Source: Candidatus Baldrarchaeota archaeon (GTDB lineage Archaea > Asgardarchaeota > Baldrarchaeia > Baldrarchaeales > DXJG01). From it: a stretch of 54,962 nucleotides of DNA. Where the stretch lies: contig JAUQZC010000047.1 in assembly GCA_030587435.1 (NCBI GenBank), forward strand, positions 1-54,962, written 5' to 3'. Positions 738 through 17,042 of the stretch are shown one piece after another (the stretch's first letter is position 1; each line of letters opens with the position of its first letter). The position numbers and the translations under genes were made by a program. A model generated the notes under the pieces. That model saw only the letters and a program-made list of their open reading frames with translations, ran no database searches and was not told the origin of the DNA.

Positions 738-893
738 GGTGCGGCATCCCGTGAAAGTCAAGCCTCCGCACGTTCCCAGGAGTACTATCCTCCGCGAGGG
801 GATGGGAAACTGGGAAGCTGCCTGCTTCGGCAGGCGGCCATAGTGCGGAGGGAAATACCCGTTCCCATTCCGAACACGGAAGGATGCCGCACC
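738..893 (+). rRNA. Circularly permuted 5S rRNA gene (precursor)
   Basis: All 5S rRNA elements are present but in rotated order. The 3' half comes first: AGTCAAGCC, the helix II strand CCTCCGCAC (763-771), helix V strand TTCCCAG (773-779), loop E and helix IV, helix V strand CTGGGAA (810-816), and helix I strand GCTGCCTGC (817-825). A TTCG loop (826-829) joins it to the 5' half: helix I strand GCAGGCGGC (830-838), CCATA, helix II strand GTGCGGAGG (843-851), and the loop C hairpin TTCC-GAACAC-GGAA (868-881). The new ends are held by an 11-bp helix, GGTGCGGCATC (738-748) with GATGCCGCACC (883-893). Next come CCGTG (749-753) paired with CACGG (875-879), bulge AAA (754-756) and bulge AAG (880-882): a BHB-like motif. 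Cutting in both bulges and joining gives GGAA(A)GTCAAGCC, within one base of the canonical loop C. The mature RNA would be about 125 nt and circular. The order and helices are seen directly; processing is inferred. Confidence 0.9.
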
Positions 894-16693: not shown

Positions 16694-17042
16694 TGCGGCC
16701 GCGGGTAGGGCCGGGAAGTTACCGGTTTCCTGTGACCGCAAACCCGGTTTATGGCGGGGCCAGTAACCCGAGGGGCGATATCTAACCCCGATCGTAGGAT
16801 CTGGTCTTACAGCAATGAAATCCCGTCCCGTGGGGCCGGCGGTGGCCGGGTCTCCCGCTTAGGCGGGAGTACTACGGCCTTTACCGGGGGAACCAGGCCA
16901 GGCCCGGGAGATGGAAAGTTTGTTGCCACCCGAAGGAGCAACCTAACCCCGGACGTTCGGCGCTCGCGGGGGCGCGGGGTAGAGACTGGAGACCAGAACA
17001 CCGCGATCGGGAACGGTATCCACCCAAGGGAGCCGCGGCCGC
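16694..17042 (+). ncRNA. ffs: SRP (7S) RNA with BHB intron in helix 8
   Basis: The ends pair as helix 1: TGCGGCCGCGG (16694-16704) with CCGCGGCCGCA (17032-17042). The 5' Alu domain has CCTGTGACCG (UGUNR-type turn), a helix 6 hairpin TCTCCCGC/GCGGGAGT lies near 16850-16870, and the S domain shows CCAGGCC...GGAGCAACC. Helix 8 is interrupted. CGGG (16905-16908) pairs with CCCG (16929-16932), flanked by three-base bulges AGA (16909-16911) and AAG (16933-16935), with inner pairs TGG/CCA. This is a textbook BHB. Removing 16911-16934 (24 nt) gives GGCCC-GGGA-GGGAGCAACC, restoring the CCC/GGG stem, a GNRA tetraloop and the AGCA of the SRP54 site. Without the intron the RNA would be about 325 nt. Identity is secure; splicing is inferred from structure. 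Confidence 0.92.

Follow-up and report, generated by a model that had tools for sequence, protein, structure and literature searches.

Permuted tRNA genes are known from algae and Thermoproteales, and their swapped halves are joined through a circular intermediate. The 5S rRNA genes of Halobacterium and Sulfolobus are ordinary linear genes. The permuted SRP RNA of Thermoproteus tenax is cut by the splicing endonuclease and is circular (Plagens 2015, PMC4731332). Permuted 5S rRNA has been described in organelles (Valach 2014, as cited in PMC10085705). In archaeal rRNA, excision at bulge-helix-bulge (BHB) motifs is accompanied by ligation, and circular 23S rRNA has been reported in archaeal ribosomes (PMC7758197, PMC12918454). 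The known circularisation route, as set out in PMC12918454, covers 16S and 23S rRNA and not 5S rRNA. The 5S circRNAs of Halobacterium and Sulfolobus have variable ends and were proposed to be part of degradation (PMC12558985).

5S rRNA is indispensable in cytoplasmic ribosomes (PMC7283268). The same study describes an E. coli strain living with a permuted 5S rRNA that has its native ends connected through 4 nt and is built into the 23S rRNA. 5S designs opened in loop C or D reach polysomes, and the engineered cells grow more slowly and show assembly defects. For the closed Heimdallarchaeum genomes, a paper of 2022 states that the prediction of a 5S gene was unsuccessful (PMC8813620). No permuted archaeal 5S gene was found in the open-access literature, including under the phrases 'permuted 5S rRNA' and 'permuted 5S'; subscription papers and preprints were outside the scope of this search.

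The permuted 5S rRNA gene

The window is the whole stretch of DNA that was analysed, 54,962 nucleotides in length. On its + strand, positions 756-880 form a body of 125 nt, which is a complete archaeal 5S rRNA with its halves in permuted order. The 3' part comes first (756-825) and comprises the end of helix III, the 3' strand of helix II, helices IV and V with loop E, and the 3' strand of helix I, as delimited by a covariance model for the permuted order, R1. A TTCG tetraloop (826-829) on helix I then fuses the natural 3' and 5' ends. It is followed by the 5' part (830-880) with the 5' strands of helices I and II, helix III and loop C, identified from a half match to the Rfam model RF00001, from R1 and from the sequence. 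Helices I to V, loop E and the conserved positions are all present. R1 matches 756-880 at 130.1 bits, the window itself being in the training set, and the fold of 725-905 has a z-score of -6.2.

The linear order, with ends in helix I and one full RF00001 match above 38 bits, is absent. RF00001 yields two half matches only, at 717-826 (23.7 bits) and 856-882 (22.9 bits), with a gathering threshold of 38. With an HMM built on 18 linear Asgard 5S genes, the body scores 26.0 bits as written and 69.7 bits after re-linearisation, which identifies the 5S as complete but permuted. When all 125 rotations of the body were scored with the same HMM, the best seven, within 0.5 bit, started at or just after the tetraloop.

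The new ends of the gene correspond to the two-adenosine bulge of helix III. In the leader, GGTGCGGCATCC (738-749) is the exact reverse complement of the trailer strand (882-893), and both form an outer stem of 12 bp. Next to it lies a central helix of 4 bp, in which CGTG (750-753) pairs with CACG (875-878), and each new end has a bulge of three bases, AAA (754-756) on the 5' side and GAA (879-881) on the 3' side. CACG is also part of helix III in the mature RNA, and CGTG substitutes for the 5' strand of this helix within the precursor. In alignment A3 of permuted genes, pairs 114-117/131-134 lie on one side of the break and pairs 2-3/112-113 on the other. The archaeal splicing endonuclease rule sets the cut position within BHB bulges. 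The cuts are accordingly predicted between bulge bases 2 and 3, at 755/756 and 880/881, and the predicted join gives CACGGA^AGTCAAG in the window sequence, in agreement with the 5S consensus. Upstream, a TATA-box-like TTTATAT is located at 709-715, and a start about 25 bases downstream of it would fall at the 5' stem.

An earlier note on this DNA had described all 5S helices and loop E in permuted order, fused natural ends and a joined product like that of normal 5S RNA, and had proposed a match of the re-linearised gene across the junction as a check. The fold, the tetraloop, the predicted join and the HMM score bear this out. The note had placed the new ends inside loop C, a few bases away from the AA bulge in which they actually lie. 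Its end motif is retained as a BHB with a three-base bulge on each strand, while the proposed 11-bp helix with a CCGTG/CACGG core is replaced by the canonical reading of a 12-bp stem and a 4-bp CGTG/CACG core. The Thermoproteales setting of the note has to be abandoned: the stretch 700-930 shares 230 of its 231 bases with each of the loci L021 and L060, and since L060 is the contig JAEOSG010000002, titled Candidatus Baldrarchaeota archaeon, the window is Asgard.

The window encodes other RNA genes. A gene resembling a tRNA, with long insertions and a CCA end, is found at 308-480 on the - strand and reads as an intron-bearing tRNA-Trp. It was missed by ARAGORN and gives a sub-threshold tmRNA match. 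A similar tRNA sequence adjoins the permuted 5S in loci L013, L014 and L022. The archaeal SRP RNA is encoded in normal order at 16698-17039 on the + strand (165.7 bits).

Covariation and variants of the bulge-helix-bulge motif

All 38 distinct permuted sequences score higher with the linear-5S HMM when re-linearised, the median rising from 22.5 to 51.8 bits. Rotation was examined for six genes, five of which peak at the helix I loop. This peak fails for L015, in which the best rotations are spread over 35-81, with 40.2 bits against a median of 37.3. In A3, which contains 16 sequences, 93.5% of pair cells are standard, and both sides change in 30 of 37 pairs. The covariation amounts to 0.729, against at most 0.170 when the alignment is slid.

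The BHB was analysed in 47 genes with distinct flanks, each in the best of three registers. Six entries were left out, namely L027 and L034 (short flank), L048 (contig end), L031 (false), and L066 and L076 (without the end pattern). In this best register, all four central pairs form in 43 genes and three of four in the other 4. The main group consists of 24 genes with 21 distinct flanks. Its outer 10 bp are 90% paired; 1000 partner swaps gave 48% on average and never more than 60%, and sliding gave 33-43%. The central 4 bp are 95% paired, compared with 67% with swapped partners (maximum 88%), and the central helix on its own is weak evidence of covariation.

Two registers dominate. Register 1 has CGTG/CACG with the bulges AAA or AGA and GAA or GAT (the window, L013, L019, L022, L023 and others), and register 2 has CCGA/TCGG or CTGG/TCAG with the bulges AAG and AAA (L015, L016, L018 and others). 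The cut is offset by one base between them, and both joins give the same two-A bulge in helix III. L054, L055 and L070 fit only a third register, with an outer helix of 0, 3 and 7 bp before a mismatch. Their predicted join leaves a bulge of three bases in helix III instead of two, i.e., one base extra. Heimdallarchaeum-type genes (20 of the 47) keep the core, and their outer stem (GCCTAGTAAGGT/ACCTTACTAGGT and variants) lies at some distance from it without abutting it, the 5' side carrying a hairpin insertion. Their best helix reaches at least 11 in 17 of 19 distinct flanks, with a mean of 7.0 and a maximum of 12 in 200 shuffled controls. The main group has the BHB geometry, from which the Heimdallarchaeum type and L054, L055 and L070 deviate.

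Other break points and possible introns

The permuted 5S genes are opened at three break points, the helix III bulge, loop C and loop B. The break in loop C occurs in five genomes of the Loki family f3 (G136, G137, G142, G143 and G119, with loci L199, L206, L207, L208 and L196). Four of them belong to one genus and have the flanks CTGG AA^C and CCGG TC^A; joining gives ACCCGGTC^CCATCCG, which is loop C of relatives. The flanks in G119 are CTGG AA^A and CCAG AA^T. In G106 (L195), the break is at loop B, where the flanks are CCGA AA^A and TCGG AA^A and the join gives GGAA^ACACCCG. Apart from cutting and joining, little would account for three break points that each carry a motif whose join restores the consensus.

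A different arrangement is present on contig C117 of bin G047 (L225/L211). Here, a linear archaeal 5S is split at the same helix III bond by an insert of 23 nt with the same core (CACG GA^A ... CGTG AA^A), which looks like a BHB intron in 5S. A pattern search, in the register of the window only, found a linear 5S with an intron at this site in one of 392 genomes, G047. On reading, the RNA polymerase genes of C117 include a fused B'/A' frame, and the contig may be foreign to the bin. The gene could show what the precursor of a permuted gene looked like. Such an intron route has been proposed for the permuted SRP RNA (PMC4731332).

Extra bases were also observed at other sites. The Loki permuted 5S genes L197, L198, L194, L053 and L065 contain about 25-30 extra loop C bases ending in CGGGAACCCGG, either an expansion segment or an intron. 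In the Sigynarchaeota-titled permuted 5S L068/L221, a hairpin of about 30 bases is inserted near helix III. The linear 5S L224 of family f4 (G215:C15) has about 32 extra bases after GTTAA, a possible intron.

Distribution among Asgard archaea and other archaea

A DNA pattern for the swapped order was scanned over one genome per species, covering 84,980 species. The scan returned 49 stretches, 48 titled as archaea and one as Bdellovibrionaceae, with two genomes contributing two each. The archaeal stretches are titled Heimdall-, Loki-, Jord-, Odin-, Baldr-, Njord- and Sigynarchaeota or 'Asgard group', with one 'Crenarchaeota' and one 'archaeon', both of which correspond to Asgard genomes of the set of 227 searched with R1. 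The Bdellovibrionaceae stretch was rejected, as it reads as no 5S at that place. As the pattern was derived from Asgard genes, it says little about other groups.

R1 was built from the 16 permuted genes of A3. Over the 227 Asgard genomes, 171 match at E ≤ 0.1, of which 34 with E above 7.1e-7 were left out (7 in family f10, 5 in f18, 2 in f13, 18 in f4, and G055 and G106). A strong match (E ≤ 7.1e-7) is hence present in 137 genomes from 21 families, including the single-contig genomes G007, G042 and G082. Most of the 137 rest on the R1 score. Because a linear 5S can reach an E of about 1e-7, eight weak counted hits (G127, G040, G005, G136, G134, G137, G142 and G143) were read by eye, and all eight are permuted. 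Family f17, which includes Heimdallarchaeota-titled genomes, reaches 97 bits, though no training sequence carries that title. A 5S gene is listed for a Jordarchaeum and a Borrarchaeum bin in PMC9723677; the Jordarchaeum genomes examined here carry the permuted gene, and this is not reconciled with that listing.

RF00001 exceeds its cut-off in 64 of the 227 Asgard genomes, compared with 154 of 165 other archaea. Any 5S over this cut-off is lacking in 132 of the 137 strongly matching genomes, and the remaining five are G129, G072, G152, G063 and G047. The linear 5S of G129, G072 and G152 adjoins a bacterial 23S and is contamination, the RF00001 match in G063 (38.4 bits) overlaps a permuted copy, and G047 has the intron-bearing gene on its odd contig. 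A linear 5S over the cut-off without a strong R1 match is found in 59 Asgard genomes (families f4, f8, f10, f13 and f18). The other 31 fall in neither class, G106 among them being permuted on reading. More of the Asgard genomes searched have the permuted form than any other 5S arrangement, and the gene described in the earlier note is not an isolated case.

Tandem or multiple permuted copies were seen at L056 and in G063 (contigs C77, C90, C106 and C132). In three of the four G063 copies, the gene starts 12 bases away from the end of its contig.

The titled records were for the most part assembled from metagenomes, and foreign 5S does occur in some bins. It is nevertheless hardly credible that the gene is a pseudogene, an assembly artefact or a result of misbinning, with a normal linear 5S elsewhere, in view of the strong matches in 137 genomes, single-contig ones included, the compensatory changes throughout A3 and the nature of the five exceptions. 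The record CP084167, titled as the complete genome of Heimdallarchaeum endolithica, carries two permuted 5S copies and comes near to a closed genome with the permuted gene and without a linear 5S. This record presumably belongs to the study of closed Heimdallarchaeum genomes. A search for a separate linear 5S, as proposed in the earlier note, found none over the Rfam cut-off in G001-G004, the nearest of the genomes searched. A linear copy in the window's own genome is excluded through these near relatives only, and G001, which is 84% complete, is without a permuted match too.

In the 165 other archaeal genomes (G228-G392), R1 reaches at most 57.2 bits. The best matches, G291 (57.2 bits), G349 (53.9) and G352 (46.5), were read as linear and rejected as permuted 5S outside Asgards; the 5S genes of G291 and G349 are tandem linear copies. 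The reading covered these three matches. The 154 genomes over the Rfam cut-off have a linear 5S; permuted genes may still occur in the other 11, or with other break points. Phage records contained nothing resembling a permuted 5S.

Proposed processing of the transcript

The permuted order, the 5S fold, the BHB geometry with its covariation, the consensus across the junction and the tetraloop replacing the natural ends can be read from the sequence, from which the subsequent processing is predicted. With a probability of about 0.78, the window encodes a permuted 5S, the transcript of which would be cut at the BHB by the tRNA splicing endonuclease and ligated, likely by RtcB, to a covalently closed 5S rRNA of the ribosome. 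Transcription would proceed from the TATA-like box. The endonuclease would cut at both predicted sites, RtcB would be the likely enzyme to join 880 to 756 to a ring, and the closed 5S rRNA would then enter the ribosome. Release of the 5S would resemble that of an intron, and the leader and trailer would take the role of exons.

Of 33 distinct upstream regions, 16 have a TATA-like motif between 32 and 66 bases ahead of the mature G, while shuffled sequences give a mean of 3.6 and a maximum of 9. The machinery was checked in 21 of the 227 genomes, relatives of the window's genome, 18 with a permuted and 3 with a linear 5S. The splicing endonuclease (PF01974) is encoded in all 21, in two copies in 20 of them. 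RtcB (PF01139) is likewise found in all 21 and is partial in G016, G026 and G042.

The RNA could also be cut at the BHB and left open. It would then be a linear but permuted 5S that ends in the helix III bulge and functions in the ribosome in the manner of fragmented rRNAs. Permuted 5S rRNA has precedents (Valach 2014, cited in PMC10085705), and the ends would fall in the unpaired AA bulge. This outcome is improbable, as in both dominant registers, and also at the loop B and loop C break points, the bulges keep the bases from which joining recreates the consensus, and as RtcB is encoded in every genome checked. Moreover, archaeal BHB cleavage products are normally ligated.

Transcripts of permuted tRNA genes first form circles, from which cleavage yields the standard form (PMC10085705). 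By analogy, the 5S ring could be short-lived and be opened again at helix I, resulting in an ordinary linear mature 5S. This is unlikely, since there is no spacer between the natural ends and helix I runs into a loop of 4 nt, which is UNCG in 30 of 38 permuted genes (counted as is, with the split misplaced by the script in L020 and L064, helix length 1). With helix I ending in a tetraloop and no spacer left to process, the closed 5S would not be reopened.

Evolution of the gene order

A quick, unrooted RpoA1 tree was calculated for 30 genomes, 21 permuted and 9 linear, with partial rows for G003, G009, G025, G103 and G026 (301-546 of 906 positions). On this tree, the 5S states require at least 4 changes, compared with a shuffled mean of 7.9, and 2 changes are forced by well-supported branches. 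EF-2 was dropped as a marker because of paralogues. The chances are about even that most Asgards build their ribosomes with a covalently closed permuted 5S as their only 5S, and that this form goes back to an intron-bearing 5S early in the history of the phylum, with the break point moving at least twice and some lineages going back to a linear gene. The RpoA1 frames L186, L188 and L189 (G009, G025 and G103) have a long insert at profile position ~447, probably inteins.

Comparison with known systems

The permuted gene likely explains the failure to find 5S in complete Asgard genomes. As this gene scores below the cut-off of the Rfam 5S model, the annotation of Asgard 5S needs a new model. The gene would make 5S another of the RNAs processed by the tRNA splicing machinery and suggests a ribosome with a ring-shaped 5S. 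For the archaea regarded as the closest relatives of eukaryotes, it also provides a character based on gene order.

The organellar permuted 5S is a natural permuted 5S too, but is encoded in organelles, and we know of no BHB/RtcB route for it. In permuted tRNAs, the ring is reopened at the natural ends, whereas in the Asgard 5S a tetraloop replaces these ends. The 5S circRNAs of Halobacterium and Sulfolobus are circular 5S species as well, yet with variable ends. Circular or permuted archaeal 23S rRNA arises by processing, and its genes are not described as permuted in these papers (PMC7758197, PMC12918454), while the Asgard 5S gene is itself permuted. The SRP RNA of Thermoproteus shares with the Asgard 5S the permuted archaeal non-coding RNA gene and the BHB at the new ends, and its canonical gene had likewise not been identified. 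Endonuclease cleavage and a circular functional product have been reported for the SRP RNA, and the counterparts in the Asgard 5S are predicted. It is a different RNA, with two Thermoproteus species named in PMC4731332, compared with strong matches to the Asgard 5S in 21 families.
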